In this document: positions 12,876 through 44,758 of the stretch, piece by piece
Layout: each line of letters starts with the position of its first letter
Numbering within the stretch: the stretch's first letter is position 1
DNA from: Physcia stellaris
Lineage: Eukaryota > Ascomycota > Lecanoromycetes > Caliciales > Physciaceae
DNA length: 64,000 nucleotides
Direction of reading: 5' to 3'
Assembly: GCA_018902385.1 (NCBI GenBank)
Contig: JABSSW010000057.1
Span: 124,001-188,000, forward strand
The notes under the pieces: model-generated
Database searches by the model: none
What the model was told of the DNA's origin: nothing
The model's input: only the letters and a program-made list of their open reading frames with translations
Translations under genes and position numbers: made by a program

Positions 12876-13146
12876 TCACGCGATCCTTCCTCCCCACTTC
12901 AACCACCATTACTTCACCAAATTTACGTGTATATGTGTATAGTTCAGTGAAGAAATTCGATAGTATATAAACATTCAATAATTGAAATATGATTATATTC
13001 GAAATTCGTTTGAAATCACTAATTTATTCTCAAATGTTTCGAAACGTTTTCAAATTTTTTATTGATCAAAACATTCGTATGACATTTTTTCGATTCATGA
13101 TAAATTTTGAAACATTCAAATGACACGCATAAATTCATTTTACATG

Positions 13147-14044
13147 TTATACAATAATCAAACGTTTTACGATTCGAACGATGTTGTATATTGACATTTT
13201 TGAAAATAAATGTTTGACGTTTTCGAAATCTCGTGTGAAAATTGATCGAACAATCATTTCATTTACAATACGTCGATTTGACACACTTTGACGATTAATG
13301 TATGATATTTGAATTTCGTAAAAGTTTTTCAATCAATTGTTGAATAAATACACGTCGATTTCGATAATCGAATTTTTTTGTGATTGATGATGATTTCAAA
13401 CGATATATGCATTGATATTGATCGAATTTATCATGTATTCGATCATTCGTTTCGTTCATTTGCGTTGTTCGAATCGTGATATCGTTAATTCATTTCGAAA
13501 TTGATTTGCACGATTCGCATGATTTATATGAAAATTGTATTGCATTGCAATAATGAATTGTTTGACGACGATTTTATTGAAATCGTTTCGAAAAAATGCA
13601 TCGATCGTGAATCGAGTTTTTCGTGATGTTTGCTCGTTTGCTTGTGAAATATATGCAATAATAGCAAATGTGATCACGTGATCTCGTTCGAAATTTCTTC
13701 AAACGAAACAATTGATCAATTCATTCACAATTCGATGTATTCATTGCTTTAAATTCAATTGTGATTTGTTTGCAACAACTATTTTTTTCAATTTCAATGA
13801 TATATCAGATGCGTTGTCTCGTACAATGTCACAGATATCGACATTGAAAATCAGAAAAACTCTGACGAAATGAGAATTCGTGAAAAAGTTGTCGATGAAA
13901 CAGACGAAATGCTGATGACGAAAATCGCGTGTAACTCGTTCGCAAAAAATATATATTATTTTTTTCGTAAATACAAAATGAATTTTCATAACAATGATTT
14001 CAATAATGTTTTTTTTGCGTTTTCGAATCGTTTTTGAAAATATA
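13147..14044 (-). pseudogene. piggyBac-like transposase, C-terminal half (decayed)
   Basis: Minus-strand fragments at 13741-13989 and 13456-13677 carry piggyBac transposase landmarks: a FIDNFFTNS motif around the second catalytic Asp, a following TVR/IVRDNA-type segment, and further on a HINHANRANQFRN segment equivalent to the conserved Asp/Gln helix near the end of the catalytic domain. A further fragment (13147-13332) may be the C-terminal tail. Several stops and frame breaks come from C-to-T changes. This half was separated from the N-terminal half by the copia insertion at 14045/23367. Confidence 0.65.
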
Positions 14045-14049
14045 TTGAT
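14045..14049. repeat. Target-site duplication TTGAT, left copy
   Basis: The same five bases flank the other end of the copia element at 23363-23367. Confidence 0.75.
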
Positions 14050-14245
14050 TATTGAACGAATGTGAATGATTGTCGTTGCATTGCATGCAATATTATCGAA
14101 ATTACGTACAAAAGAAAATACAATTTGATTGCGCAGATGTTTTTAGTAATGATCGATTTTGACACGTTTCGTTTAATCGATCAATCAAAAGTTTTGATTT
14201 TATTCGTGTTCATATTTCAATTTTCTGTCATCGTATTTTTCAACA
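14050..14245 (-). repeat. copia LTR (3' LTR in element orientation)
   Basis: Direct repeat of 23169-23362 with about a dozen and a half differences, ending TTCAACA. Differences are mixed transitions, including some at TpG/CpA. Confidence 0.85.
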
Positions 14246-14269
14246 TTTTCACTCGATAACAATCATGTT

Positions 14270-14778
14270 CATTGCATTCGTGAATGCGACTTTCATTGAA
14301 TTTCAATTTTTGCATTGATTGTGATTTTCACTGAATGCTAATTCGTGCAGCGACGTAGCTTTCACTGAATTTCAATTTCTACATTCATTGATGAAAGAAA
14401 CACTGAATTTTTCTGATCAAAAAATCGAGCTCGAACGATCTCGAAAAAAATCATTTTAAATTATCATGCAATTCGAGTCTGAGCACGATCAACGAGTTTC
14501 TATTTTCAGTCATAATTTGTTAAATTCGTACAATCGAATCATCATCGCTTTAAAATGAAAAAAATGACGTGATTTCAATCAAATTCGAATTTTTTGACTA
14601 TTGACGAGAGAAACACTGATTTTTTTGATCAAAAATTAGATTCGAACGATTTCAAAAAAATCATTCTGAATTATCATGCAATTCAAATTTGAACACGATC
14701 AACGAATTTCTGTTTTCGATCATGATTCGTCAAATGTGTACGATTGAATCATCAACATTTTAACATGAAAAAAACAAT
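14270..14778. repeat. Tandem repeats in copia untranslated region
   Basis: A ~180-bp unit occurs twice in direct order (about 14387-14570 and 14600-14778), recognisable by aaacactgaN, gatcaaaaa and atcatgcaattc blocks. Two shorter copies (ttcaNtgaatttcaattt) lie just before at 14290-14385. They lie between the RNase H remnant and the LTR. Confidence 0.6.
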
Positions 14779-14797
14779 TCTGATTATTGAAAAAAAT

Positions 14798-15124
14798 CTA
14801 ATTGATTTTCGATTTTTTCAATTTCAATTGTTTCACGAATTTCTTGAATTTATTTTTTGACAATGATTTAGTCAAATCATCGATTATCATGTTTGCATTT
14901 GAAACGTAATTCAATTGAATCAAATTTTTCTGATGCAAGTTTTTGATGTTATGATAAATCACATCAATGTGTTTTGATCGTTCGTGAATATGTGCGTTTT
15001 TGATCAACAAATTAACGATTTGATTATTTTTCAAAAATTGCATTGATGAACAGATTTCATGCTTATCGTTTTGAATGATTGCTATTTGATTCAGTTCGAT
15101 TTCGAAATATTTGATGAAATTCAA
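14798..15124 (-). pseudogene. copia RNase H domain remnant
   Basis: The minus-strand frame carries the copia RNase H ending: HERSKHIDVIYHNIKNL followed by YVSNANMIIDDLTKSLSKNKF, matching the usual S-KHID-RYH and P---ADILTK-L elements. It is truncated and mutated. It follows the reverse transcriptase fragments, as expected in Ty1/copia. Confidence 0.8.
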
Positions 15125-15232
15125 ATTTCGAAAAAGCTGTGCTATTCATAATTTTTTTTTAGCGCATGTCGATAGAATCATATATTCGATTTCAATGATT
15201 GAAATAGCGATCGATTTTTGTTTACGATTCAT

Positions 15233-16252
15233 TCATGATATTGATTCTTCAGCGAACATGTAAACGTATTCGAGAATCGATTTTTTGTTCAGTTTATCGA
15301 CTGCGTAATCAAAATTCGAATAAGTTTTGATTTTGAAATTTTCATTATTGTTCAATTTCAAATCGTATACAAAATTTAAATCGATGATCGATCGAATGTA
15401 ACGAAACAAAATTTTCATTGTTTTGTCGTGATGTTTCGCAAAATCGCTGAAATATTGATTTAATCGTTTTAATGCGAAAACGATATTTGAACGAGTGTGT
15501 ATGACAACATACATGAACTTTTCGATTTTGTGTTGATAATTCTTTGAATCAATTCGTTCGTCGTTCGATTCAGTTGATCTGAATGAATCGTAATCGTTCA
15601 TGAATAATTTCGTACGTTCGTGTTTATCGATGTTCATATGCAATTCATTCAATATTTCGCTCAAATAATGAATTTGATTTAATCGAATAATTCGTCTTTT
15701 ACGATCGCGAATGATTTTAATGTCAAAAATTTTTTGCATTTTTTTCAAATTTTTGACTTTGAATATTTTTTTGAATTCATTTTTGAATCAATTGATTTGT
15801 TCGTTGAATTTGACGACAACAAAAATGTCATTCACGTAAAAAAATAATATGATTTTTCGTTTTTTATGACGAAACATACATGAATTAATCGAAATTTGTT
15901 CGAAATTTAATTTGTGCAATTTTTTTACGCAACGTTCGTGTCAATTTTTAATTGTTTGTTTCAATTCATAAAAATTTCGACGAATCAAAAATGTTTGTTC
16001 GAAAAATAAATTCATATCGAATAACGATTTCATGTAAATTATTTTTTTTAAAAATGATTTCGTGAAAACATTGTTGACGTTTATTTGATGACATTCGAAA
16101 TTTTTCAACGCGACGATGACGAAAAACAAACGAAAAATATCGAATTTGACAATTGAAACAAAAATATTTGTATAATTTATTTCATATATTTGCGAAAAAT
16201 TTTTTGCAACGAATTTGATTTTCAATTTGTTCAACGTATCATTCACATACAT
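15233..16252 (-). pseudogene. copia reverse transcriptase remnant
   Basis: Two frames, 16252-15941 and 15748-15233, cover the RT. The first has KIKFVAKNFSQIYEINYTN (family K-R-VA-GF-Q--GIDY-) and HQINVNNVFTKSFL (family Q-DV--AFL-G-L). The second holds IIRDRKRRIIRLNQIHYL and the YVVIHTRSNIVFAL block (family G-LMY---TRPDI-FAV). Between them, at 15827-15838, the catalytic YVDD now reads YVND, a G-to-A change at a GpG site. The enzyme is dead. Confidence 0.85.
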
Positions 16253-17605
16253 TTTGATTTTGAATATTCATTTATTGATGACGATATTGACGTTTTTCGA
16301 TAAAATGACGACGTTTCAAATTTCATTAATTATTAACGTCGTCAATTCGATTTGAATAGTTTCGAGTCAAAATTTATTTCAAATGAAATCATTGACAATT
16401 TTTTGATAATTTTCGAACACAAATATGATCAATTTTTCAACGAATTGTCGATTTGTATTTTTTGTTGTTGCAAACAGAATTCATTCATCGTGTTCGCACG
16501 TATCAAAATTTTCGATCAAAAATGTCATTATGACGCGTGCAATTTTGTTGCGATGTTCATTTCGTTTTTTTTCGTTCGTGATATTTCGTTTACGTTTAAA
16601 AATTGTCACGTGAAAAAATTGCTGCATCATGCGTGAAAATTTCGTGAAAAATGTTAATTTAACACGCGTTTGAATTGTTGATTTCGTCGTAAATTTGTTG
16701 ATTTCATTTTTTTCATTTGATGTATCGATGAATTCATCGTTTTTTTTCATGTGCATTGATTGAATTTTTTTCGTTTTTCGAAATCATAAACGCAACAAAA
16801 ATCGAAAATTTCGCAAAAACTGATGCAACAAAAATTGATGTAAACGTCGATATCATCGAAACGATTGCAAATGCAAAAATTATTTTGCGTGATTTTTCGA
16901 CAAATCGTTTTTCAAATAATTCGTTCATCGTAATCGTGAACAAATTCAATGATTCGTTTTTTCATTTTTCATGTTCAAAAAACATTATTTTGTGATGCTT
17001 GATGACATCACGACGATCGAAAATTCATATTTTGTATTGAATCGTGATGTTTTCGTCATAATTCATAAACACATTTGATTTTTTTGTATTGACGAATTTG
17101 TTTTTTTTATTTTTTTCAAACAATGATTTAATATCGACGAACGAATAGCATTTGCATTTTCAAACGCGTATGTGATTTATCGACGATTTAATATTTGTTC
17201 AAATTTCAATAAAATTTGTTGAATTGTCGTCGATTACTGATTTCGTGTTCATACGATTGCGAACGTATGCATTTGTTTTTTCTGTTTCAAATCAAAATTT
17301 TATGAAAAGTTCTGCGTTTTGAATCATTGTTCGAATTTGATTTTCGAACGTTTTTATGACACGTTCTATTACGTCGTTTTGAATGAAATTGTACGAAACG
17401 ATGTATTGTGAAACAATGTCGATAAATTCACATCAAAAATCGAATATAAACTTTAATTTTTTGACGTTGTCACAACGTACGATTTGTAATTTTCGTTGAA
17501 TTTTTAGTTTCATTTTCAGTTTTTATTTGTTGAAAACTTTTGATGCATCAAATCGTTTGCGATAAAATAGAATTTATGTTCGTCGAAAATGATTATTCAC
17601 GATTT

Positions 17606-17830
17606 TTAAAAATATTCGTAATCGAATTTTGAAGCGAATAAAAATTCACAAATATCGATAAATATCAATTTCAATATGTGAGTTTTGCGTTCGACTAAAC
17701 GACGATTATGTGCATTAATCATTTTCGTAATCGCACATATTTTAAATAAATCGTTGCGATTTTCGACGATGAGAATCGACTTGCGTAAAATTGTGATTTT
17801 GTGCAAATCTCGAAATTTTGCAAATCTCAT
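17606..17830 (-). pseudogene. copia integrase N-terminal remnant
   Basis: The minus-strand frame includes a zinc-binding-like region, now missing several ligands (ICAITKMINAHNRR), followed by RKTHILKLIFIDICEF, which matches the first catalytic Asp region of copia integrases (P-ELIH-D-CGP). The rest of the integrase down to ~17,000 is too degraded to call. Confidence 0.7.
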
Positions 17831-17875
17831 ATGATCAAAACGTCGATGTCATAACTCGTATAAATCACGTCTTTT

Positions 17876-17965
17876 TTGATCAACATTTGAATCAATACTT
17901 GAATCAACATTTGAATCAATATTTGAATCAACATCTGAATCAATATTTGAATCAACATTCGATGA
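17876..17965 (-). repeat. 12-nt minisatellite in copia polyprotein
   Basis: About seven tandem copies of a ttgaatcaaNaN unit. On the coding (minus) strand it gives alternating NVDS and NIDS tetrapeptides between the protease and integrase remnants. Confidence 0.7.
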
Positions 17966-18233
17966 TTGAAAATCGATCTCGATATCATTTCGAAAATTAG
18001 TATTTGCATCGAACAAAATTTCGTTCGAGTTCATTATTGTTGACGTTGCAAATGAAACAAACAAAACTTTAAAAATTCAATTGCAAACATCGTGTTGCTC
18101 GTTAACAATGCGTATTTTTTAAATTTTGATGTGATTTTGTTTATTATGTAAACATTTTTTTGAACGAATGTTCGAAATATTTCAACGTTTTGTTTATTGC
18201 GCATAAACAAATTATCGTCATTGAAATTTTTTA

Positions 18234-18443
18234 TCAATTTTTCTTGATAAAATGTTTGTCGAATAAAAAATTGACGTCGAAATCAAATACATAAAACATT
18301 TTCGTCAACGTGTTTTTATCGTTTTTGACGCGCATCGTCATTGAATCACATTGATTTGAATACAATTTTTTTTTTTCGATTTTAATCGTGCGTCTTTTAA
18401 TCGACTTGAAAAATTCATTAAAAAATCGAAAATCGTCAATCAT
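18234..18443 (-). pseudogene. copia protease/linker remnant
   Basis: The frame opens with MIDDFRFFNEF, corresponding to the segment just after the catalytic Asp of copia proteases, and ends with a VFDFDVNFLF-like block matching the usual LYVP-L--NLLS motif. The catalytic D-SG triplet, expected just upstream in this orientation, is not readable. Confidence 0.65.
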
Positions 18444-18890
18444 GTGAAACGAAACGTCAATGTTTGCAATTCAAACGAATTTGAAAAATTTATTGATCAA
18501 TTTTTTGAATAAAACGACGATTTTTTCATGTGTTTTTCATTGTTTGAATCGATGTCGATATCGAAATTTGAATTGTTGTTGAACGAAAAAAAAAATGAAC
18601 GACGTTGTACGTTTTGTGTTTTTTATTTTTACGTAAAAATTTTTTGATTTTCTTTTTTTTCGTTCATTTTTTTAATTTTTCAAAAATCACATTTTGCAAT
18701 TCGATATGAATCATCGCAAAAAAAAATATCTCGTTTTTTTCGTTTTAATTTTGAAACGACGAAAATTTTCGTCGAAATTGAAAAATCGTCGTTGAAATAT
18801 GCGATAAAATTGACGACAATTGTTTTTGATCATTAATGTCGATTCGACGATTTTGTTCGCAATGAATTGTGTTTTTTTTTTTTTTTTTGC

Positions 18891-18895
18891 AATTT
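18891..18895. repeat. Target-site duplication AATTT, left copy
   Basis: Matches 22339-22343 at the other end of the inner LTR element. Confidence 0.7.
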
Positions 18896-19116
18896 TGTTG
18901 AAAATACAGTCTTCGCGAATGTGTTGCAGTCAGAATTCAGTTGATATAATCTGACGAAAGACGTTTTGATTTGAACAAAGTACTAATGTTTGCGTTTTTG
19001 TTGAGATTAATGTCTTGGAAAATTCGCACACTTCTTGTGTTTTCATCTTGCATGTATGTTACAGAACAACGAGATTCAGAGCAATAAAATGGTAATCACT
19101 CATGATTCTTTCAATA
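18896..19116 (+). repeat. Inner element 5' LTR
   Basis: Direct repeat of 22143-22338. It retains CpT/CpC sites that are TpT in the other copy. A ~25-bp stretch near 18960 is absent from the right copy. Confidence 0.8.
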
Positions 19117-19563
19117 GATTATGAGAATCGGATTAGCAATTTTCGTTACATTTAATATCATCTACAGCATGAGCGCAGTAGTATCTAGCCGCCAAACAAT
19201 ACAGCAATAAATTTGCAATATTAACAGCAGTATTCAACTTCAGTTGAAAGTATTCAGTTTAGTCAGATCAGAACGATCTAATTGCAATAAAGCAATACTC
19301 AATATCTTGATACACGATCAGTACAATTCAATACGTTCTCAATTACATCGATAACATCTATTTATTTATTTACGAAGTTTTCGAAACAGTCAACTTTCGA
19401 TTTATTTATTCATTTTACGAATATTTCGCGAATTCGTTTACATATCACTCAGTCAGAATGATTATTTTTATTTTTGCGATCAAATTCGCGTTCGATTCAT
19501 TTTCGCATTTGATTTTTTATTTTTTCGTTTGTTCTTTGCGATCACGTATCTGAAGGTCATCTC

Positions 19564-20683
19564 ATGACGCAAAATCTCAAAACGCTTTATAACATGCATT
19601 TGATTGAAAATGTCAAGACTTTGCGATGCAATTGATTCACTCAAGCGAAAAAAACACAAGAAAATTATCATTTACGAAAGCATGAGTTGAAAATCAAAAA
19701 CAAACTCAAGAAAAAAATGAAGCAATTGACAAAACAAAAGAAAAAAGTTCGTCTGATCAAGAAACGAACTGAAAAATATACGTGCAAACGTTGCAAAATC
19801 AAATTCGATAACAACATCAAATTTCACGAACATATTCGCATTCGACACGCGAAAAAGTCGAAAACAATTGTTTCGTTCTTTGCGCAAATTTCAAAATCGA
19901 AATTTGTTCAACAGTTTGTTGAACATGTGATTTCATTTTCTGTTTCGTTTGTTTCGTTATTTCGATCGATAATTTCGTCATCTTTTTCGTCATCTTTTAC
20001 GTCGTCGAAATTAATAATCGAATTATCAGTTATTTTTTCAAAATTTTCATCAGAATTTTTGTCGATTGCAACATCAAAAAAATCGATATTTTGAACAGAA
20101 ATCGTTTCACGATCAATCATTGCATCGAAACTTTTTCGTTTTTCGATTGCGACATCGAAATCGACATACAGATTTTTGAAAAAATTCGCAATCAATTGTT
20201 CGTTTATTTCATCGTTTATTTCGTTTCGAATATTTATATCATCGAAATTTTATTTCATTGTGAACGATTTGATTCGCATGTTCGTTGAAAAGTCGAATTC
20301 ATTTGATTTGCAATCACGTCGATTCAAATCGTTTTCTTGTCGCGATTTTGACAAATGCAATTTCGAAAACAATAATTTCGTACAAATTTGTATTACGTCA
20401 TATTTTCATGCGACGATTTCATTTGTTTTCAAATCGATCAAATTCGAAACATTTGAATCAACACATGTTCGCGAATTCATTTCGCGTCAATTTTCGATTT
20501 CGTCACGTTCGATTTCATTTATTTTTTTTTCTTTTCGATTTGTTTCGATGCGTTTTCATTTTTCGACAGTTTTTCGCTCGTTTTTCGTTTGCAGACATTG
20601 TCAAAAACGTTTCGTCATTTATTGATTTATCGATTGAATCATGTCAAATGTTTTCAGAGTTGAAAACAATGAAATATTCATGA
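19564..20683 (+). pseudogene. Zinc-finger protein gene of the inner LTR element (decayed)
   Basis: Reading from ATG 19564, one stop interrupts before 19687. The frame then gives a Lys-rich coiled segment followed by one C2H2 finger: YTCKRCKIKFDNNIKF...HEHIRIRH, with Cys-x2-Cys-x12-His-x4-His spacing intact. Downstream, frames to 20625 end in a second partial finger (FVCRHCQKRF). The middle is Ser/Phe-rich from C-to-T decay. Such single-finger proteins accompany LTR repeats in some ascomycetes; a Gag-like nucleic-acid-binding role is a guess. Confidence 0.6.
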
Positions 20684-21059
20684 AACAGCGCTATTGAAGT
20701 TTTGCTTCTTTTCGTTTTACTTTGAAAAAGTATTGATCTTCTTGAAATCATTACTTTGAGAAAGTTAATATGATGTTGTTTGTTTGTTTGTTTGCTCGTT
20801 CATTTCATTCTATTAATCGTTGATCGATCATGATTTGAAAAAGCATAAAAGTTGTTGTTTTAATGAATTCGATATTTCGTCTTTCTCGTTCTATTTCGAC
20901 TTGGAAAAGTTTTAGAATTTGTATGCTTTGTTTTATTGTTTCACGAATTTGTAAAAACTTATTTCTGTTGTGACTTCGTCTTGATCTAACACGATTAATT
21001 ATCGAATTTCTTTTTTCTACTATTCTTGAGACTTAGTCGCCCGATAAATACGAAAAAAA

Positions 21060-21310
21060 AAGAGATACAGTGATGACAATACAGTCTCGAAAAAACGTAC
21101 GAAAAAACGTATTGATTTACTGTACAGTTGTTAAAAAAGAACGAACAGACTAGATAGTATCGTTTCGAGAAAACGTATTATTCAATCATATTCGACACTC
21201 GAAACTCGAGAAAATCAAACAATACAGTTTCGGAAGAGCGTATTATGCAGACATGACTAAAAGTCACATAATATCGCTTCGAAAAAACGTACTATGCAGT
21301 CATTACACAT
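21060..21310 (+). repeat. Degenerate tandem repeat in inner element
   Basis: Imperfect units of the type tttcgaaaaaacgta-tatgcagaca recur four to five times. Function is unknown. The mutation load here is lighter than in the zinc-finger region. Confidence 0.45.
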
Positions 21311-21904
21311 TCGACCTTGCAAAACAAAAACTCGATCAAAAAGAAAAACAATCAGTGTTGAAAATATCTGACTTTTTAACATACTAATCGATTTGATTCT
21401 CTGACAGATTTTAGTCAAATCAGAAAAGCTCGATTCTGCATTCTTTGCATCGACGTACAATTTGAACATGCTTTCGTCGCATTCGATGCATCATTTTTCT
21501 TGTCGATTTTTCGATCATTTTCAGCTTTTGACATTGCATCGACATATTTTATGAACTTTTTACAGTCAAATTACATAGAGATCGATTCATTGATGTCGCA
21601 AAAATACTTGAAAATTCTGAAATTCAAAATGATGTTATCAGATCAAAATGTGATTTTTGTTTCTCGTTCAACATCGCAGAATTCAGACAATTGGTACTTT
21701 TTTCATGATGTATTTTTAGCCAATTCTAGATATCAGATATCACATCGATGCGTTATTTCATGAAAATTCAAAACACGGTCGCAATTCTTCAGATGTTCGA
21801 TCGCACGTTTTACAATTCGATTTTACGTCATATCTGAAGCTAATAAATCATCGAATTTCGATTCGTTCGTTTTTGCAATTTTCGCATCGATGTATGATCT
21901 AACT

Positions 21905-22090
21905 CTACAGAATTTATTTCATTGAAGAAATTTGCTCGAAAACTTCAGACAATACATCGCTGAAAAAGTTTCAGAACTCATCGCTCTGAAAGAGTTTGCA
22001 CGGAAACTTCAGAACACGTATCGCTGAAAGAGTCGCATCGCTGAAAGAGTCACATCGTTGAGAAAGCTCGCACGAAAACTTCAGATCAAA
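21905..22090 (+). repeat. Degenerate tandem repeat before 3' LTR of inner element
   Basis: A short unit, atcgctgaaagagt with an aaaacttcaga spacer, recurs about five times just upstream of the 3' LTR. Confidence 0.5.
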
Positions 22091-22142
22091 TTGAACTCGT
22101 TAGAATACAGAGCAGAAAACACAAGCGATTGCTGTGAAAGAG

Positions 22143-22338
22143 TGTTGAAAATACAACTTTCGCGAATGTGTTGCAGTCAGAATTCAATTGATATAATCTG
22201 ACGAAAAATACTAGTGCGTTTTTGTTGAAACTAGTGTCTTGACATTCGCACATTTTTTGTGCTTTCATTCTGCATGTATGTTACAGAACAACGAGATTCA
22301 GAGCAATAAAATGATAATCATTCATGATTCTTTCAATA
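22143..22338 (+). repeat. Inner element 3' LTR
   Basis: Pairs with 18896-19116. The AATTT target duplication follows at 22339-22343. Confidence 0.8.
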
Positions 22339-22343
22339 AATTT

Positions 22344-23160
22344 CTGAATAAATTTATCGACATCGAAATTGTTTTGTGCGTCGATTGCATCACGAATGAC
22401 ATCGTATTCGACAAACAAAAATTGTAAAAATGTTTGAAAACGACGTTTTGATTTGAATAAACTCGTCATGTTTGATTGCATGTTTGCAACTTTGCGATTC
22501 TTTTTGATGATATCAATGTAAACGATTTCGATAATCATGTTTGAAAATTTTTTATAATTCATGAATTTTTGCAAATATTGTCTTTCAATTGTAACAAATT
22601 TTTGTTTGTATTTGTTGACAAAAACTTTTCAAATTTTTTTGACAATTTTCAATTTTGTCATCAGTTTTTGATCATCGTCATCGATACATTCGATAAATTG
22701 ATATTGTGTTTTGACATTGAATTTTTTTTCAATTTTTTTTCATCAAAATTTAAATCGACATTTCATTTTGATTTTCGAAAATCATTCGACAACAATTTTG
22801 ACACATAATTTGAATCAACGATATTTCAAATTTTTTCGTCGATAAATCATTGTTTCATTAACTTGAATCATTTTTCGCGATTTTGACGAATAAAAATATC
22901 GCAAACTCGACGCGCGTTGAATTTGTTGAATTCGAAATCGTTAATGATACGTGATGTGATATGTAAATATGTATTCGAATGTTTTTTTTTTTTTTATTGT
23001 CGTGTGCTTTTTCGTGAAATTGTCGATCGAATCGTGTAAATTCTTTTTATTGTTTTAACGCGATCGAACGATGAGTTTTTTTCACAGTTGTTTGATTTTC
23101 GTGATTTCGTGATCGAACGATTGACGCTGACAATCACAAAAAGTTTATGTTAATTCGAAT
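22344..23160 (-). pseudogene. copia gag remnant
   Basis: The minus-strand frame near 22344-22574 resembles copia Gag (UBN2-type): a KRRFQTFLQFLFVEYDVIRD segment corresponds to the usual L-SLP--Y- block, followed by a DVDKFIQKF helix like the L-LEE---RL block. The N-terminal half towards 23160 is too mutated to read. The gene is cut by the inner LTR element at 22338. Confidence 0.6.
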
Positions 23161-23168
23161 TCATAATT

Positions 23169-23362
23169 TATTGAACGAATGTAAATGATTGTCATTGCAT
23201 TGCATGCAATACTATCGAAATTACGTACAGAAAAAATACAATTTGATTGCGCAAATGTTTTTAATAATGATCGATTTTAACACGTTTCGTTTAATCGATC
23301 AATCAAAATTCTGATTCTATTCGTATTCATATTTCAGTTTTTTGTCATCGTATTTTTCAACA
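23169..23362 (-). repeat. copia LTR (5' LTR in element orientation)
   Basis: Direct repeat of 14050-14245, followed by the TTGAT target duplication at 23363-23367. Confidence 0.85.
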
Positions 23363-23367
23363 TTGAT

Positions 23368-24141
23368 CGTGATATTTTTTTTGTGATTTTCGAAATCATC
23401 GCGAAATTTCATTATTATGAAATTATGTAAAATGTTTTTATCATTGATCAAATTGTATAAAACGAAATTTTTTTCTGTTGATTTGTGTGAAAAATCAAAT
23501 TTGTTATTCATACAATCATGAAATTCGATTGTTGACTCGTCGATTGCAAAATGATTTTCAAAATTAATAAACGAAAATAATCGATTTTTGAAAACATTCA
23601 AAACGATTTCGATTTTTCAAAATCATAATGCGTTGTTGTATAACATATGTTGATTAAATTCAACGTTCAAATGACGTTCAATGTTTTGATATCGATCGCG
23701 ATTGAATGATAAATTATGAAAATTATTTTGAAATCAAAATGATTGAATTGTTGCGTTTGCAACAAAATGCTGAATCATAAAAATGCGTATAACAATTCAT
23801 TGACGTAATTTCATCATAGTGAGTGCATTTCAATTGATTTTTTTGATATAAATCGTCTGATTGATGTGATGTAACAATAAATCGAATATCGATTGCAAAA
23901 AAAACAAAAACAACTGAACGAGCTTTCAAGACGTCATACAAGCGTGATCCAATTGAAATGATCGATAAATAAATGTAATAAAAAATGTATAATCAAATTC
24001 ACGCGTTTGAATGACTTTCTTCTGCTCCAATACAGTGAAATGTCGTTTTTTCGATTTCGAAATGAAAACGTTTAAATCGACGCGTGTCTTTTTTTCTTCT
24101 TGAACGATGACTAGCTCTGATGTTGACTCAACAAATGACAT
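23368..24141 (-). pseudogene. piggyBac-like transposase, N-terminal half (decayed)
   Basis: A minus-strand fragment at 24141-23926 begins with an ATG and an acidic/basic N-terminus. The fragment at 23601-23368 contains HFAIDESTIEFHDCMNNKF, matching the conserved (S)-(I/V)-DE-M-PF-GR--(K) block around the first catalytic Asp of piggyBac transposases, then FVLYNLINDKNILHNF. It breaks at the copia insertion site. Confidence 0.65.
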
Positions 24142-24262
24142 GTTGTTTATATGATGTAATAGATTCGATTCAAACGATTCAAACGACGTCGCAATGACCA
24201 GAATAGACGTATTATTGATGAAGTAAATAATGATTGCAAATGAAAGAGAGAAATCACGAAAT

Positions 24263-24303
24263 AAACACGCTAAATTTCACTAATTGGATGCGGAGGGGAT
24301 AGG
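24263..24303 (-). repeat. Right terminal inverted repeat (41 bp)
   Basis: Exact reverse complement of 12835-12875. It ends 185 bp before the predicted start codon of the SLD7-like gene. Confidence 0.9.
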
Positions 24304-36538: not shown

Positions 36539-36543
36539 TTTAG
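36539..36543. repeat. Target-site duplication TTTAG, left copy
   Basis: Matches 44531-44535 after the right LTR. Confidence 0.7.
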
Positions 36544-36766
36544 TGTTGGAGGGGAGTAACAGGAAATTGGTTGAAGGGCCAATTGGCAGGTTGCACGTGA
36601 CTAGCCTTAAATGCTTGGCATTCGGTCTTCTACATAACCATCTGTAGCACTCTTCTGTTTAGTCATAATTGAAGTCATCTTACATTTGCTTCATTGATTC
36701 TGATAATTGATTTCATTGAATTTCGATTTCGTACGATTTACATTTGTGCTAATTATTCTTTTTTTT
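36544..36766 (+). repeat. gypsy left LTR (mosaic)
   Basis: It starts TGTTGGAGGGGAGTAAC. The first ~140 bp are unmutated; from about 36682 onward CpT/CpC sites are converted. It pairs with 44309-44530. Confidence 0.9.
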
Positions 36767-37529
36767 TGATGTTCATTTTCGAAAAACGATTGATAATAAA
36801 ATCGTCGTTGATCGCTCATTGTTTACATTTTTTGAAAACGACAAAATCGAATTTTTTTTACACGACAATTATTTTATCGATTGTTTATTTTTTCGAACGA
36901 CGAAATTTTTTATATCATTATTATCGAATTTCGAAATTTCAATTGCATACGATTCGAAATGACGACGAAATTTCGATCAACACGTTGCATTTTTCGTTGT
37001 TGAATTTTTCGAATTTAAATTTGTATATTTTCGAATTGTTTTTTTGATTTGATATTTTGCATCGTTTGCAAACAAAACATCAAACATATTTTCAAATCGA
37101 TTGTTGAAATTTTCATTACGAATAGTGAAAAAAAACGATTACGAAAAACTGTTATTATTGAACAAAATAATTTCTGAAACGACTCAATCAAAACGCACAT
37201 TCATAAACGACATCAGCACGAACATTACGTATTGTTCAACGATCAAAGCATTTTTTTTTTTTTTTACGTTAATGATCAAGAAATTCAAAAATATCATATT
37301 GAAAATCACAACGAATTGTTCGAATTGCGAAATCTTTCGATCACACATATATTACGATTTCAAAATCTTTTGCAACGATTGTAAATTCTGAATCACATCA
37401 ACGAGAAATACAATCAGTGAAAATTATTTTCATTTCATTTCGAAAACATTTACGCAATTTGCAATCGATATTTTTTTTTTTTTCAAAATTTCAATCAACA
37501 ACGTTTGTTTATTTTACTCGCAAACTCTC

Positions 37530-38720
37530 ACGCAAAATGTTTAAAAAATTTGACGATTTCATGCAAGAATTTCAATGATTCGTGAATTTCAATCACGAAT
37601 TCAAACATGAAAATTTAACGTCTGAAAAATACATATTGCAACTTTGAATTTTGTTCGTTGAAACGTTCAAAGATGAATTGACAACGATAAAAAACTCAAA
37701 CATTGATTAACAAAAAAAAAATGTCATTGAAAATGACAAAAAAAGTTCAAAAAAATTATTTGCGATAAATATTTTGTCAAAAAAAAACTCATTTTTATTG
37801 ACGACGAACGCATCGATCGAATTTTGAATACAACTCAACGAACAAATGAGATTATTCGAAAATATTACGAACGATTCAACAAAATTTTTGTCGAAAACGA
37901 CGATCAAAATTACATCGTGATCAGCACGTTGACAAAAAATGAACGCATGTTTTTGATTTTTTTCATCAAGCAATTCATCAACGATATACGAAATTTGAAA
38001 TTACGACAGCGAATGTATGTTAAATATATCGAAAACATGATCGCAAAAATGAAAAACTTGACAAAAATTTGCGTTTTAACAAAAAAAATGCTCAACGTCA
38101 TGCAATTTGAAAAACGTCACGAATTTCAAATTCAAAAAGCAATAAAAAACGAACGATTTAAAATTTTCGAATTTTATTTTGAACAATTGAATTCAATCGA
38201 TTTCAACATCAAAACGAAAACAATCAAAATCGTACAAAATGTGTTGATCGAAAAAAAATTTTTTATCGACGTGATATACAACAACAATCGACGTTTTCAA
38301 CGACAATCAATCAAAATTTCAAATAACGAACGTATTCAAAAAATCAATTCAATCGAATACACAAAATCATTCATTTCAAATATTTCAAAATTGCAACAAT
38401 ATTCAAAATATTTTTCTCAAAATTTTCGAAATCAATCACAAATTGTCATATCATTTTTTCGTGACGAAATCAAATGAAAAAAACAACGTGAAAAAACAAA
38501 TCGAAAATTCAACGTTCAAATTTATTTCAATCGCTTTATCAACGAAAATGTGACGTACAACAAAATAAAACACGATATTTGCTGTCATACATGCGACGAA
38601 TGTGATCATATTTCGAAAAAATGCACATGTGACGAACATCAAAAATTTATTTCGATTGCACAACGTCGTTTACAACAAATCATTGCATACAAATCACGTG
38701 AAAAAAATTATTACAATTCG
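37530..38720 (+). pseudogene. gypsy Gag remnant with intact zinc knuckle
   Basis: A capsid-like helical frame runs from 37824 to 38477 (e.g. RKYYERFNKIFVENDD, a typical Gag helix), preceded by broken sequence from ~37530. Downstream, at about 38583-38624, is a CCHC knuckle with correct Cys-x2-Cys-x4-His-x4-Cys spacing (CHTCDECDHISKKC). The knuckle survives because TGT, TGC and CAT codons hold mostly TpG/CpA sites. Confidence 0.75.
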
Positions 38721-39512
38721 ATTTTTATATTATCAAAACAATTATTTTCAAACATATCATTTGTTTTTACATTATATCAATCAAAATTATACAAATCAAA
38801 CGAATTAACAATATCATTTTCGCAATCGAATGTATTTCAATTTTTTGCAAAATCGATCACATATTACATCGAAATATTCGAAAATCATTTTTTTGCAAAT
38901 TTCGTCGCATCATTTTTTCACATCGATTACATGTACGAAAACGACGATGATTTTATCAATTGTTGTGAATTTGCGTTTCGTTTTTTCACAATTGACATTT
39001 CAACGAATTACATTGCGAATGCAAATTCAAAAAATATTTTCTTTTTTTTTGCAATTCATTTTGTCACATTTCAATCAAACATTATCGATTCAATCGTTCG
39101 AATTCAATATTTTGCAATAAAAGTAATCAAAAAAAAAATCAAAAAAAATAATGATAAAAAGTCGAATGAGAATTCAATCAAATTTTTCGCGAAATTTTCA
39201 ACAACAATTTCAAATCGATCGAAAAAAAAAAAATGAAACAAAAAACGTCAAAAAATTTTGAAATTTATTGCGAACATGATTGACAAACAAAAAATTTCGA
39301 TTGAAAAATTGTTATTGATTCAAACGATTACATTGTCGACATTACATTTATTTCAATTATTTTTTCATTTTCGCGATGAAACGAAACGTTTTATTAATGC
39401 ATTTCGAAAATTTCGCAAGAAAAAAACAAAAAAAATCAATCAAATATCGACATCAATATTCAAAATCAATTTCACATTCGTTCGTTCGAACAAAAATAAA
39501 CGCGTGCAATGA

Positions 39513-39780
39513 ATGATCAAAAAATATTACGAAATCGTGAAAATCATCAATAATGCATATGAAATTTTTTGCATATTTTACAAAGATTCGAAATTTTCGC
39601 GTATCGATTTATCGTTTAAATCGATCAAAACAAATCAAAATTCGAATTTTATTATCATCGATGTTAAATTTGCGTCGAACATGAAATTGAATGTTTATTT
39701 ATCGAAATTGTTGAATTTTAATGAAATGCGCATGATAATAATCAATGAAAATCGTCATGAATTGAAATTTTGAATTATTT
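39513..39780 (+). pseudogene. gypsy protease/linker region remnant
   Basis: The frame contains FIIIDVKFASNMKLNVYLSK and a MRMIIINE segment. Its place between Gag and reverse transcriptase suggests the protease or the following linker, but the catalytic D-TG/D-SG is not identified. Confidence 0.4.
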
Positions 39781-41009
39781 TGAATATCGAAATTGAAAAC
39801 ATTAAACGTCAAATTTGAACATTCGTCAATTCAAATCACAATGACAACAATACGAAATTGTTATTCGATTTATTTTGATTTCAATCGATACATGCGCAAA
39901 TTGACATCAAAAACAAAAAAATTCAAATAAAAAATTTCGTTCAAAATGAAATGATCAAAAATATCAATTCGAAAATCAAAATTTTTGATTTGACAAAAAT
40001 GAAACACGTCAAAAATTCGAATACGTCGTTCGAACAAAAAAAATCAACGTACAAAAAACGTTCGAACGTATCATCAACAAAAAAATCGTTTTCAATGATT
40101 TCGAATTTGAAAAAAAATCGAAAAATTCAAACGAAAAATTTAACGAGTTTTTCATTTCGAATATTGATTCGAAAAATACGAATTTTCAATAAATTTCGTT
40201 GACGATTTTAAAAAAAACTCAATGATGAAAATGAAAAATAAAAAAAATTTCAATCGATTCAAAAAAATGATATATTAACATTTGAATTCATGCACGAATT
40301 ATTCGAATAAAAACGTCGATACATGTGAATCATCATTTCGTTGACACGAATCGAAAAATACAACATTCAAAATCAATTATGCAACATTACAATCGTCGAA
40401 AAATTTCGATATTGAATTCGAATGCAAATGCGATACGAAATTTGTTTGTATGTTTCATTGAAATTTTCAAAAAAAAATTCGCATTTACAAAGTTTTTGTC
40501 AATCAAACAAATGAATCAAAATGTCGTTGTACGTTCGAATACGTTTGCATATTTCATTGAAACGAACAACAAAATAAATGTGAATCAAAACGCTCGATAA
40601 TTTATTCAAGAAACGTTTTCATAAACGAAAATTTCGATTTTGAATTTTCTATCATTCGTCGCATAATTCGTCGCATCATTGACGATACAATGTCTTCAAA
40701 TTTTCTAAAAAAATGAATCAAAAGTGAAAAAATCACGTTGAATGATGTCATATCGAATGCAAATATGCGATTGAAAATTTTACAATTTGTTTGAATTTAT
40801 CGCGATGTGAATGCAAAAAAATTGAAAAATATATTTGTCATTGATTTTGTTGTACATCGAATTTGTTTTCGATTTGATTTGAAATTTTACAATGCGAAAC
40901 AACATCGATTCACGTTTGAAAAAAAATGATAATATCAAACAATCATACAAAAAAACATTGAAATCGACATGTACGAACGTATCGTCATCGTCAACGATCG
41001 TTCGTTTCA

Positions 41010-41499
41010 ATGAAATGTTGCATTTGTTTTAATATTCAAAATCGATCAAACAAAATCAAAATTAACGTTCAATTATCATTTCGTATACGAGAAATTCGAC
41101 GAAAATATGATGAAATTCGCACAACGTATTCACAATTTGTTAAAACGTTCAAATCATCGTTGTTATTTTTCAATCGATATGAAACACGATTATTGAAAAA
41201 TCATGATGCATTCAAAAAATCGTCATTATTTGATTTTTCATGTGTCAAATATCGATCAATTGCAATTTATTCGCATGTTTCAAAAAACGAAAATTTCGTC
41301 ATTTATTTTTATCGAATTAATGAATATCGTATTTGATTTTATATTCAATTCGAATGCAAAATCGTCATTATTACATGCATTGAAAAAAACGACGTTTTTT
41401 GACATATTTTTTTACATTGATGACATATTCGAAACACATCGTATTTTCGAAAAACAATACATTTTTTTGAATGATCATTTTTTTTTTCGAATTTTGTGA
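41010..41499 (+). pseudogene. gypsy reverse transcriptase remnant
   Basis: The region covers the central RT with a broken F-V-PFGL-NAP-type segment (about 41290-41370) and an intact catalytic YIDD at 41413-41424 (family YIDDILI). It is split across two frames and preceded by decayed palm sequence from ~40900. Confidence 0.75.
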
Positions 41500-41778
41500 T
41501 TTCAAATGCGAATTTTTTTATTCAAATTGAAAATCGAAATCATCGAATTCAAAACATTCGATCAATTACATCGAATCGATGAAATTTTGAACATCAAGCA
41601 AAAATTCATGAATAAAATACGCAATTGATCAATTTTTCAAAATGTCATTGCGATACGAAGTTTTTTAAAAACGATACAATTTATTAAACGTTAAATGTTC
41701 AATTTCGATGAAATCGCGAAATCATTACAACGTATTTGCGACAGTAAAATCGAATGACGATGATTCGAATTCGAAAAT

Positions 41779-42129
41779 TTGTTTTTTCAAATTTTGAAAA
41801 GAGTATGTTTCAACGTAATGAACATGTTTGATCATGATTTCACGTTGTTTTGTGAAATTTATATTGACGTTTCAATATACGATGATGACATCTACATCAA
41901 TCAATTGCAAAACGATGAAAACAAATCAATTTTGTATGATTGCGTTTCGTTCAATTCAATTCAGCGTAATTACGATACTTACAAGCGAAAGTTGTTCACG
42001 ATTGTTCATTTTACTAAAAAATATGAACACATTTTTGACTCGAAAAATCGAAACACAATTCACATCGATCACAAATCGTTCGTGAAATTCATGAATGCGC
42101 AAAAACACGAAAATATTTATGTTCGTTGA
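41779..42129 (+). pseudogene. gypsy RNase H remnant
   Basis: The frame matches gypsy RNase H landmarks: a YIDVSIYDDDIYI segment (family TDAS--G-GA-L-Q), ILYDCVSFNSIQRNYDTYKRKLF (family P-AY-S-SL---E-NY---E-E-LA-V) and NTIHIDHKSF (family -V-TDHK-L). The catalytic first Asp appears retained; the domain itself reads as one open frame. Confidence 0.8.
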
Positions 42130-42789
42130 ATCAACAAATTTCGAAATCACAATATTCAAATCAAATACATTGAAAACAAAAAAAATCAAATGATCGACGA
42201 TTTTTCACGCGTCATTTTCAACAAAAAAAATTGCGAATTCGATCAATTGATTAAAAATTTGCATCGTGAAATCATCAAACATAAAAACGATATTGAATGA
42301 TTTTGAAAAATCGACAAAAACGAATATCGCGATACGTTGAAAAGATTGTTTGCGAAAAACGAAAAACGAAAAATCGAAAAATACGATGAGCAAATCATTG
42401 CTCGAATAAATTGAACGTTTTATTGTGTAAAAAAACAATGTTTTCTGTTCGATTTTACGTCATATGATGCAAAGAACGACTCGAAATTACATGCGATAAT
42501 TCGAAATTTTCAAGTCGAAAATATAATCAATGAAAAAAAATCGAATTACATTCAAAAAATTTGATATTCAAATATTTATGCATATTACGCACAAAAAAAA
42601 TCATCGAAAAATTTAAACAAAACAACGATGATCGCATTCAAACGTAAAATCAACAATTATCGATGAAACGAATCAATAAATCGATTATTGCATATTTACG
42701 TTGAAAAATGATGTATTTGTATAACGAAAACAAAAGTTGCGTCGTTGTTGCAAAAAATTCATGACGAAATCGAACATTTCTCGTCAAAC

Positions 42790-43380
42790 ATCGTTTTTAA
42801 TCGCATCAAGAATCGAGTATATTGATTTTTCATGACCTCAAATGTGAAATCATACATACTGAACTGTTTGCAATGTGCTCAGTGAACCGTGACTGCACGT
42901 CAAGTTTTTTTGCATTCTGTTCAGACGTATCAATTTTATGACCTATTCGATATCGATTTCATCGATTGACCTGATCCTTTCGAGCACGAATACAAAAATA
43001 TTCTTAATATGATTGATTACTTCGCTGAAGCACTATTCGCGTATTCAACATTCGATATCTTCGCTCTTGACGTGAAACAAACTTTTGATTATCATCAAAA
43101 TAGTGAGCATTCTATGCTTGCAGCGATGTATTGAAACGCAGATTCGACATTCAAATCGATGAAAATGAAAGATATGTTTGATGATCGTGACATTATTTGT
43201 ATATTTGTTCCAAATCAGTCTCACAAGTTCGTCGATATGATTGAACGAAACAATAAAATATTCAAACATGTTATGAACAAAATGAAAAAATTAAACGAAA
43301 ATTTTTTTAATATTTTTCGACGAACAATTTTTGTTTGTAACGATCGTCATATAAAGCATTTAAAATATATTTTCAATTAA
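42790..43380 (+). pseudogene. gypsy integrase core remnant
   Basis: A zinc-finger CLQCAQ-like piece (about 42864), a catalytic DIDFID segment, the second catalytic region with W-to-stop and Asp-to-Asn changes (TGG-GAT/C now TGA-AAC), then FVPNQSHKFVDMIERNNKI carrying the catalytic Glu, and VCNDRHIKHLKYI. This stretch keeps more CC/CT/AG dinucleotides than its surroundings. Confidence 0.75.
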
Positions 43381-43499
43381 ATTTTGCATGATATCGAGTT
43401 TTTCAATTTCGTCGTCGTTCGATTTGTACAACTTTTACAATTGTTCGAAAAAATTATGTTTTTCAATTTCGACGAAATGTTATCGTTGATATAAAATCA

Positions 43500-44195
43500 T
43501 ATAATTAAACGCGAAAAAATTCATAAAAATGTGATAAAACGCATGACGAAAATCAAACAACGCATGAAAAAACGTTACGATCGTGAAATTAAATTCAAAT
43601 TATTCGTGTTCGATCAATACGTGTTTTTTCGTGATATCAATTTCATTTTTGACAAAAACGTATTTCGATGACGTGAATTATTCGTTATCGTTAATTCGAC
43701 AAACAAACACGAATTCAATTATCATTTTTTAAAATTCGATGACAAAAAAATTTCGAATCAATTTCACGATGATCATTTACGATTTTTTTTGTTCGCGAAA
43801 AATATTTGCGTTCGATCAATGAAAAAATTTTATCAATCATGAAAAATTTCAAAAAAACGAAAAAAAAAACGATGAAAAAAGCGAAACAAAAACGAAAAAT
43901 CAAAAAATCATTTGAACAATTTATTCAATACAATTCGATTTCGATCAAATATCGATAAAAAACTCATTTGATTGTTATACAAATCGAAATTACGTCATCG
44001 ATATGTTGCAAAATTTCGAATCGTTCAAAAACGAAATTTTTGAATCAATATACGATTTCGACATTTCGAGTTTGCGAAACGATATTTCGTATGCGAAATT
44101 TGTTGATCAAATTGAATTTTTGTTTATTATTTGATGTAAATTTTTTCGATAATTTTGATGTTTCGAAATTGTTGAACGATCATACATTTCACTAA
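43500..44195 (+). pseudogene. gypsy integrase C-terminal module remnant
   Basis: RMKKRYDREIKFKLFVFDQYV followed by a broken RELFVIVNSTNKH segment and a NQFHDDHLRFF end resemble the GPY/F-type module after the integrase core. Many Lys codons follow. No chromodomain can be read. Confidence 0.55.
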
Positions 44196-44308
44196 TTTGC
44201 TTGAAATTCAATGACAAAATAACGATGACGTATGAATATCGACGTTGTCGTTCAAAAAAAAATTAATAAATTGTCGCTGAAAACAACGATTTGTTGTGTA
44301 AAAAAATT

Positions 44309-44530
44309 GTTGAAAAAAAATAACAAAAAATTGATTGAAAAATCAATTGACAAATTGCACGTGATTAATTTTAAATGTTTGACATTCGATTTTTTACATA
44401 ATCATCTGTAACATTTTTTTGTTTAATCATAATTGAAGTCATTTTACATCTGCTCCATTGAATCTGATAATTAACCTTATTGGGCCTCGATTTCGTACGA
44501 TTTACATCTGTGCTAATTATCCTCTTTTCT
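44309..44530 (+). repeat. gypsy right LTR (mosaic)
   Basis: The first ~140 bp are mutated (TGTTGAAAAAAAATAAC) and the last ~85 bp are clean, the reverse of the left LTR. It is followed by TTTAG at 44531-44535. Confidence 0.9.
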
Positions 44531-44758
44531 TTTAGGGATGTCCAAATTTGGAAATTGAAAATTGGGAGCTTCTAGCCCGATCGGTCAGCCCGCTTAGTAA
44601 TCACGTCCGAAACTTGGAAAAGATAAGGTAACGAAATACTTTATGTTTGCCTCGTCTTCGAGGATGTAAAGCTTATAAAGTGATGCCTTGGGCTACCTAC
44701 CCCAAGTATACAGACTGACAATCCCACCAACTCGTCGCCGTGCAATAAATGTGCCCTC

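Follow-up and report, generated by a model that had tools for sequence, protein, structure and literature searches.

C-to-T Transitions at CpC and CpT, with CpA and CpG near Background, Recur in Repeats of Physcia stellaris

The DNA analyzed here (the window) comprises 64,000 nucleotides of the Physcia stellaris genome assembly GCA_018902385.1 (43.97 Mb, 147 contigs) and corresponds to positions 124001-188000 of contig C57 (JABSSW010000057.1). It harbors a gypsy long terminal repeat (LTR) retrotransposon at 36,544-44,530 that is densely peppered with C-to-T transitions on both strands. This peppering is real and genome-recurrent, and follows the base 3' of the cytosine: cytosines before a pyrimidine (CpY) are mutated, CpC more than CpT, and CpA and CpG stay near background. 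Pooled over six comparisons (the outer 5' LTR of the window element, three copia pairs, one DDE_1 pair, and ribosomal RNA (rRNA)), 445/519 CpC, 395/611 CpT, 32/638 CpA, and 33/596 CpG sites are changed; the remaining LTR copies, another DDE_1 family, and two additional copia pairs lie outside this pool and agree with it. We consider it likely that a homology-directed process similar to repeat-induced point mutation (RIP), with an inverted target rule and probably executed by a RID-type enzyme, is responsible.

Context of the Transitions in the Window Element

The element is bordered by 5-bp target-site duplications read from the letters (TTTAG at 36539-36543 on the 5' side, matching TTTAG at 44531-44535 on the 3' side), and its LTRs of 223 bp are located on the plus strand, as is the interior. 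The outer part of the 5' LTR (36544-36683) is unmutated and gives the starting state, with a guanine plus cytosine (GC) content of 0.44, 13 CC+GG, and 19 CT+AG in 36544-36680. The inner part (36684-36766) is CpY-mutated, with a GC content of 0.24, no CC+GG, and four CT+AG in 36681-36767. In case of the 3' LTR, comparison with the outer 5' LTR reveals a CpY-mutated inner part (44308-44447), and comparison within the pair a largely unmutated outer part (44448-44530) with two sites mutated at CpA/TpG. The initial annotation had treated one LTR as the clean copy. In the 5' LTR this applies to ~140 bp on the outer side and in the 3' LTR, nearly so, to ~80 bp on the outer side, but the inner parts are mutated and neither LTR is clean throughout.

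Relative to the clean outer 5' LTR, C-to-T changes of the 3' LTR on both strands occur at 15/15 CpC, 17/20 CpT, 0/24 CpA, and 0/4 CpG sites (tallies run one base longer than the 223-bp LTR). Chance is excluded by the comparison of CpY (32/35) with cytosines before a purine (CpR, 0/28; Fisher p = 7e-15). Relative to the nearly clean outer 3' LTR, the 5' LTR is changed at 5/5 CpC, 5/8 CpT, 0/6 CpA, and 0/6 CpG sites; the outer 3' LTR carries two changes of its own at CpA/TpG, and one transversion is present in the pair. Re-counting the first 140 columns returned the 32 differences (20 G-to-A and 12 C-to-T) given in the initial annotation, which had also described the CpA and CpG sites of this part as unchanged, in agreement with the 0/24 and 0/4 above. 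The remaining columns contain, as described there, 12 reciprocal differences of the same kind and two at CpA/TpG, in addition to the transversion.

The interior (36767-44307) is near-saturated with CpY transitions according to dinucleotide odds, which amount to 0.02 for CC, 0.16 for CT, 1.36 for CA, and 3.30 for CG in 36,900-44,000. The segment 40,021-40,380, earlier singled out as devoid of CC and GG, contains 0 CC, 0 GG, 1 CT, and 1 AG next to 24 CA, 13 TG, and 25 CG. A second AT-rich block of the window (12900-24300, ends approximate) shows the same CpY signature in its composition, with odds of 0.04 for CC, 0.36 for CT, 1.33 for CA, and 2.74 for CG in 13100-24000. CC and CT are depleted in both AT-rich blocks, whereas the odds of all four dinucleotides remain near 1 (0.82-1.09) in three gene regions.

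Recurrence of the Rule across Repeat Classes

The rule was observed in more than one class of repeat and is spread over many contigs. LTR matches occur at at least 41 places according to a genome search, and a BLAST search covering the window together with 20 fetched stretches gave 24 LTR copies. For 19 of these (four copies and the reference itself being left out), comparison with one relatively clean copy gave changes at 343/454 CpC, 289/532 CpT, 44/627 CpA, and 6/190 CpG sites, and in the reverse direction at 11/87 CpC, 38/299 CpT, 5/597 CpA, and 10/206 CpG sites. The copies are not all independent, as L018/L020 and L027/L031 are near-duplicates. L039 and L043 overlap and cover the same place. 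Four copia pairs were changed at 215/230 CpC, 244/331 CpT, 28/362 CpA, and 28/308 CpG sites (reverse direction: CpA 17/357, CpG 23/308). Of 137 places with a reverse transcriptase match (RVT_2), 8 were fetched, together with four further copia copies found by DNA match, which mostly overlap that list.

DNA transposons follow the same rule. From the open-frame DDE_1 copy L034 to the degenerate copy L040, 222/278 CpC, 185/304 CpT, 20/294 CpA, and 18/310 CpG sites are changed; reverse values of 12/296 for CpA and 13/306 for CpG indicate that much of the CpA and CpG change represents ordinary divergence. Both strands are mutated (CpC 93/114 and 129/164, CpT 100/134 and 85/170). In the second DDE_1 family, two comparisons with L039 gave 39/40 and 43/43 for CpC, 90/163 and 125/160 for CpT, 9/303 and 25/303 for CpA, and 5/298 and 11/298 for CpG.

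A rule based on the 5' neighbor was considered and rejected, as CpC sites of the L034/L040 pair are mutated at 42/63 if preceded by A, 41/50 if by C, 76/89 if by G, and 63/76 if by T; the base before the C is without strong effect. Some effect is exerted by the second 3' base (CCA 74/80, CCT 71/85, CCC 36/50, CCG 41/63).

The rRNA unit on C41 differs from the Rfam consensus at 37/44 CpC, 24/50 CpT, 2/45 CpA, and 0/36 CpG sites for which target and neighbor are conserved. This tally rests on 13 of 18 alignment blocks, the five poorly aligned ones (two of the large and three of the small subunit) being left out; the alignments of both subunits are partial, and the consensus is eukaryote-wide and thus only approximates the starting state. 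The unit (L017, C41:41001-50000), which is heavily CpY-mutated, is the only one reported by a 5.8S search with 39 of 2,644 candidates scored. Functional ribosomal DNA may be absent from the assembly. RIP-mutated rRNA units are known (PMC5555474, PMC2621366).

Within the window and the fetched stretches, 260 AT-rich 500-bp bins (mean GC content 27.6%) have odds of 0.06 for CC, 0.33 for CT, 1.27 for CA, and 3.01 for CG, compared with 0.95, 1.05, 1.08, and 0.92 in 250 other bins. The fetched stretches had been picked because they contain LTRs, methyltransferases, or rRNA, and randomly sampled DNA allows a less biased test. To this end, 80 random positions on contigs 1-73 were generated, and 1,000 bases were examined at each of the first 20. 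Four of these 1-kb stretches are heavily mutated (GC content 0.23-0.27, CC+GG 0-10, CT+AG 13-36, CA+TG 109-132), one is partly mutated (GC content 0.35, CC+GG 52), and 15 are normal (GC content 0.45-0.52, CC+GG 92-138, CA+TG 120-152). The mutated ones carry the CpY signature; in the heavily mutated stretches CC+GG is nearly gone and CA+TG barely lower.

Identity of In-Frame Stop Codons

Single-step routes to a stop codon in one open transposase frame are CAA>TAA, CAG>TAG, and TGG>TAG at CpA, TGG>TGA at CpC, and CGA>TGA at CpG. The CpY rule can in one step make stops at tryptophan codons only (TGG>TGA). The 838 in-frame stops found in total comprise 695 TGA, 137 TAA, and 6 TAG. RVT_2 contributes 401 TGA, 101 TAA, and 3 TAG (137 matches, four without stops; 150 of 165 candidates scored), RVT_1 250 TGA, 33 TAA, and 3 TAG (150 matches, 10 without stops; 150 of 527 candidates scored), and DDE_1 44 TGA, 3 TAA, and 0 TAG (10 matches, one without stops). 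These counts do not all represent independent events, since copies share ancestry. Although CGA>TGA is possible, CpG is not the main route to TGA because the context tallies show CpG spared. TAA is non-negligible and may stem from TAG>TAA, residual CpA change, or shifted frames.

The proposal of the initial annotation that the target rule differs from the CpA-preferring RIP of Neurospora is supported by LTR copies, copia, two DDE_1 families, the rRNA unit, random stretches, and stop identity. It had named CpA as the leading dinucleotide in repeat alignments, or assembly error behind the LTR differences, as outcomes speaking against it; neither appeared in the sampled repeat families examined.

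In the second AT-rich block of the window, a copia reverse transcriptase remnant (RVT_2; 15635-16327, minus strand, C57:139635-140327) contains four in-frame stops, all TGA. Two frames of 217 and 228 codons in the gag region of the element (37824-39236) remain open despite saturation, as expected if tryptophan codons are the chief source of stops. The frame of 228 codons (38550-39236, plus strand) encodes a CCHC zinc-knuckle-like motif, appears gag-like by eye, and has no Pfam match at E 0.001. Genes of the window include CLPTM1, a proteasome subunit, and one with a Sld7 domain.

Burst-Like Mutation and Fading at Element Edges

Between the copia copies L068 and L070, 102 transitions, 99 of them at CpY, and no transversion were counted in 699 aligned bases, and between L065 and L072 109 CpY transitions and three transversions. 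The pattern is burst-like, since slow decay would be expected to bring other changes as well as 102 transitions.

Mutation fades towards the element edges. In seven 3' LTRs, CpY is mutated at 203/227 sites on the inner and 56/130 on the outer side, and in seven 5' LTRs at 69/223 sites on the outer and 93/129 on the inner side. From the 24 LTR copies, these 7 + 7 were kept, with six unclassed by flank GC content, three too divergent, and one reference left out. The flanks of the window element are normal in composition. Edge fading together with normal flanks fits a process that reads a homology block and is weaker at its ends.

Candidate Methyltransferases and Proposed Mechanism

A profile search identified three genes with a PF00145 domain in the genome, on contigs C3, C5, and C6. 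The open frame of the C3 gene extends over 1,118 codons and its closest PDB chain is 9bap (E 5e-188), which is listed only as DNA (cytosine-5-)-methyltransferase; its BAH match is weak (18.7 bits, under the cut-off of 30.8). We presume a Dim-2-like gene, the name Dim-2 being inferred. The genes on C5 (L016) and C6 (L014/L009) encode 934 and 508 amino acids, respectively, with introns placed by eye, and share 40% identity in their methylase parts (305 residues compared). Both keep the PCQ, QxRxR, and IGNA motifs. In motif VI, LEQTSGL (EQT) in C5 and MEETFGL (EET) in C6 stand in place of ENV, and the target-recognition stretch is short, with 83 residues in C5 and 76 in C6 between IAS after what we take to be motif VIII and REFACLQ of what is presumably motif IX.

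Two features are described as peculiar to Masc1/RID enzymes: motif VI reads EQT or EET, and the recognition domain is unusually short (80 amino acids in PaRid). The Rid protein of Botrytis cinerea has an EET motif VI (PMC6709928). The C5 and C6 genes are therefore classified as putative RID/Masc1-type methyltransferases. The initial annotation had suggested a comparison of RID/Masc1- and Dim-2-type enzymes, which thus yields two RID-type candidates with the characteristic motif VI and short domain and one Dim-2-like gene. The EET motif of B. cinerea Rid, together with the targeting of CpT beside CpA in Botrytis (PMC4352252), hints that EET-type enzymes may be connected with pyrimidine targets. 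According to a review, RID-type enzymes show no in vitro activity as methylases (PMC13297926).

In the mechanism that we propose, a RIP-like process would recognize duplicated sequence and turn C into T on both strands. It would act by the rule observed here, with C changed before a 3' pyrimidine (CpC ahead of CpT) and for the most part untouched before A or G. A RID/Masc1-type cytosine methyltransferase is the candidate agent, and the short target-recognition part of one RID-type enzyme may read the 3' pyrimidine. By analogy with Neurospora, homology would act as the trigger and the process would operate before meiosis. The process works like RIP in that repeats contain dense C:G>T:A transitions on both strands, but it departs from canonical RIP in its target, with 32/638 CpA compared to 445/519 CpC sites changed.

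More tentatively, and with slightly more doubt than confidence, we suggest that the target code of homology-directed mutation was inverted when one of two RID paralogs, possibly the EET-type one, became a 3'-pyrimidine-specific mutator, so that the dinucleotide rule would be evolvable in the short recognition part. If true, scans that rely on CpA would overlook an entire class of genomes with active RIP.

Alternative Explanations

An explanation which differs from ours in the enzyme only, and which we regard as rather unlikely, is that the Dim-2-like enzyme and not RID performs homology- and heterochromatin-triggered CpY RIP. In Neurospora, older repeats are described as undergoing RIP that is linked to DIM-2 and independent of RID, but new constructs require RID (PMC11969663). 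The genome of P. stellaris contains two RID-type genes whose motifs are intact; on the basis of sequence, the two enzymes cannot be told apart as agents.

Slow decay, in which a Dim-2-like enzyme would methylate CpY in heterochromatin over long periods and 5-methylcytosine would deaminate spontaneously, is in our view improbable. The Dim-2-like gene is present, and DIM-2 of Neurospora methylates all CpN with a CpT preference according to a 2026 review (PMC13297926). However, the 99 CpY transitions without transversion in L068/L070 and the 109 with three transversions in L065/L072 imply that the mutations outran ordinary substitution, and the sparing of CpA and CpG does not match the description of Dim-2-type methylation as covering all contexts.

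Repeats are prone to misassembly, but assembly error, like AT-rich drift without a directed process, is hardly credible and was rejected: one and the same context rule is seen again in different families and on different contigs, stop identity fits the CpY rule, and neutral drift would not keep CA+TG near gene level (109-132 per kb compared to 120-152) as CC+GG drops to 0-10. Hypermutation of retroelement complementary DNA by an APOBEC-like deaminase, for which CC, reportedly among the favored motifs of APOBEC3G, might be cited, has a negligible probability and was rejected, as both strands are mutated (20 G>A, 12 C>T), DNA transposons and the rRNA unit are affected too, and the 3' neighbor matters and the 5' neighbor hardly, APOBEC motifs reportedly being read on the 5' side.

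Observations at Odds with Homology-Directed Mutation by a RID-Type Enzyme

Several observations weigh against this explanation. The proposed link between methyltransferase and mutation is sequence-based. Some references are themselves affected: the LTR reference copy is not wholly clean (11/87 CpC and 38/299 CpT in the reverse direction), L039, the reference of the second DDE_1 family, is partly mutated already, and L068, the reference of the burst pair, already has four in-frame stops. CpA change is not zero, as the saturated copies L018 and L020 differ at 152/740 CpA and 52/736 CpG sites. Clustering of strand patches was sought in three pairs and not found. Furthermore, duplicates without the signature exist. 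A GC-normal segment of ~1.1 kb on C52 and C133 (96% identical) differs at 2/121 CpC, 5/127 CpT, 6/146 CpA, and 7/129 CpG sites and hence without CpY excess, and the same lack of excess applies to a ~0.95-kb segment shared by C1 and C68 (~98%). The copia copies L065 (C8) and L066 (C42) are 99% identical, have long frames, and are unmutated.

Some copia copies have therefore escaped mutation. The unmutated duplicates may have arisen recently, may fall below a threshold, or may represent allelic haplotigs. In case of the C52/C133 segment, an allelic haplotig is possible because C133 is a contig of only 16 kb. CpA may be a slow secondary target.

The two duplicated segments of about 1 kb are GC-normal flanks located at L018:8899-10000 / L020:8348-9442 (96%) and L027:6961-7906 / L031:1-945 (~98%), and would represent allelic haplotigs or recent segmental duplications. 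A third copia copy with a long open frame (L067, C7, 89%) differs without CpY bias, and beside the unmutated copia copies there are 31 further matches, of which three were fetched and all three are mutated. A dispersed repeat of ~107 bp (L018:8951-9057) has some 40 further matches with 78-94% identity and no Rfam match; its copy at L018 is surrounded by DNA of normal GC content, which would be compatible with a length threshold.

Standard RIP Indices

With the RIPper thresholds as quoted in PMC7882544 (product > 1.15, substrate <= 0.75, composite > 0), none of 250 AT-rich 1-kb windows passes any of the three, which agrees with the expectation of the initial annotation that standard indices score such tracts as unmutated. 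Among 219 GC-normal windows, the composite is above 0 in two, and all three thresholds are passed by none. The ratio (CpA+TpG)/(CpT+ApG) exceeds 2 in 217/250 AT-rich and 0/219 GC-normal windows and represents a simple test for CpY-type mutation. At these thresholds, scanners built on CpA loss and TpA gain score this heavily mutated DNA zero, and surveys using them may undercount genome defence. The k-mer screen of PMC12543289 is pattern-agnostic and might still flag a CpY genome.

Comparison with Known Systems

In the open-access literature, no report of CpC and CpT targeting with CpA spared was found among the matches listed; priority is not claimed. A survey of 1,239 fungal genomes states that RIP-like defences share a CpA preference (PMC12543289). 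CpC>TpC is named as a possible class in PMC2621366 and reported as dominant in none of the species considered, and CpT changes overshadow CpA in one Neurospora family of the same paper. CpT>TpT is the dominant form in alignment-based controls of PMC7882544, CpA and CpT are given in PMC10998396, and CpA, CpT, and CpG signatures are listed in PMC4352252. P. stellaris offers a natural experiment on what sets the target preference of RID-type enzymes.

Dense C:G to T:A change in repeats on both strands and the presence of RID- and Dim-2-type genes are shared with canonical RIP of Neurospora crassa (PMC12543289, PMC7862722). In contrast to that RID-dependent, CpA-preferring process, CpC and CpT are mutated here and CpA is largely spared, TpA is not raised, stops are mostly TGA, and the indices are negative. 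CpT is also a target in Botrytis, Sclerotinia, Magnaporthe, and Anisogramma, and the C6 gene shares the EET motif VI with B. cinerea Rid; yet CpA also leads in these fungi and CpC is not named in the main texts (PMC4352252, PMC10998396), whereas here CpC leads and CpA is near background. In Rhizoctonia solani AG8, CpC is the most densely hit single dinucleotide in all four columns of Table 2 of PMC4014442, for repeats as well as genes. A CpG bias of ~40% is what the authors themselves emphasize, with single nucleotide polymorphisms across genes and repeats and CpA, CpG, and CpT all hit, unlike P. stellaris with CpA and CpG spared and normal genes. A shifted dinucleotide preference in repeats is likewise found in the CpG-type signatures of Microbotryum and Tuber (PMC4352252), but CpG is spared and over-represented here (odds about 3). 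With the lichen fungus Cladonia rangiformis, for which the main text of PMC12542154 names no dinucleotide, P. stellaris shares the strong GC contrast and the sharp borders between genes and repeats. Mutated DNA of C. rangiformis peaks near 16% GC (PMC12542154), compared with the average of 27.6% in the AT-rich bins of P. stellaris, where the GC content is higher because CpA and CpG survive.

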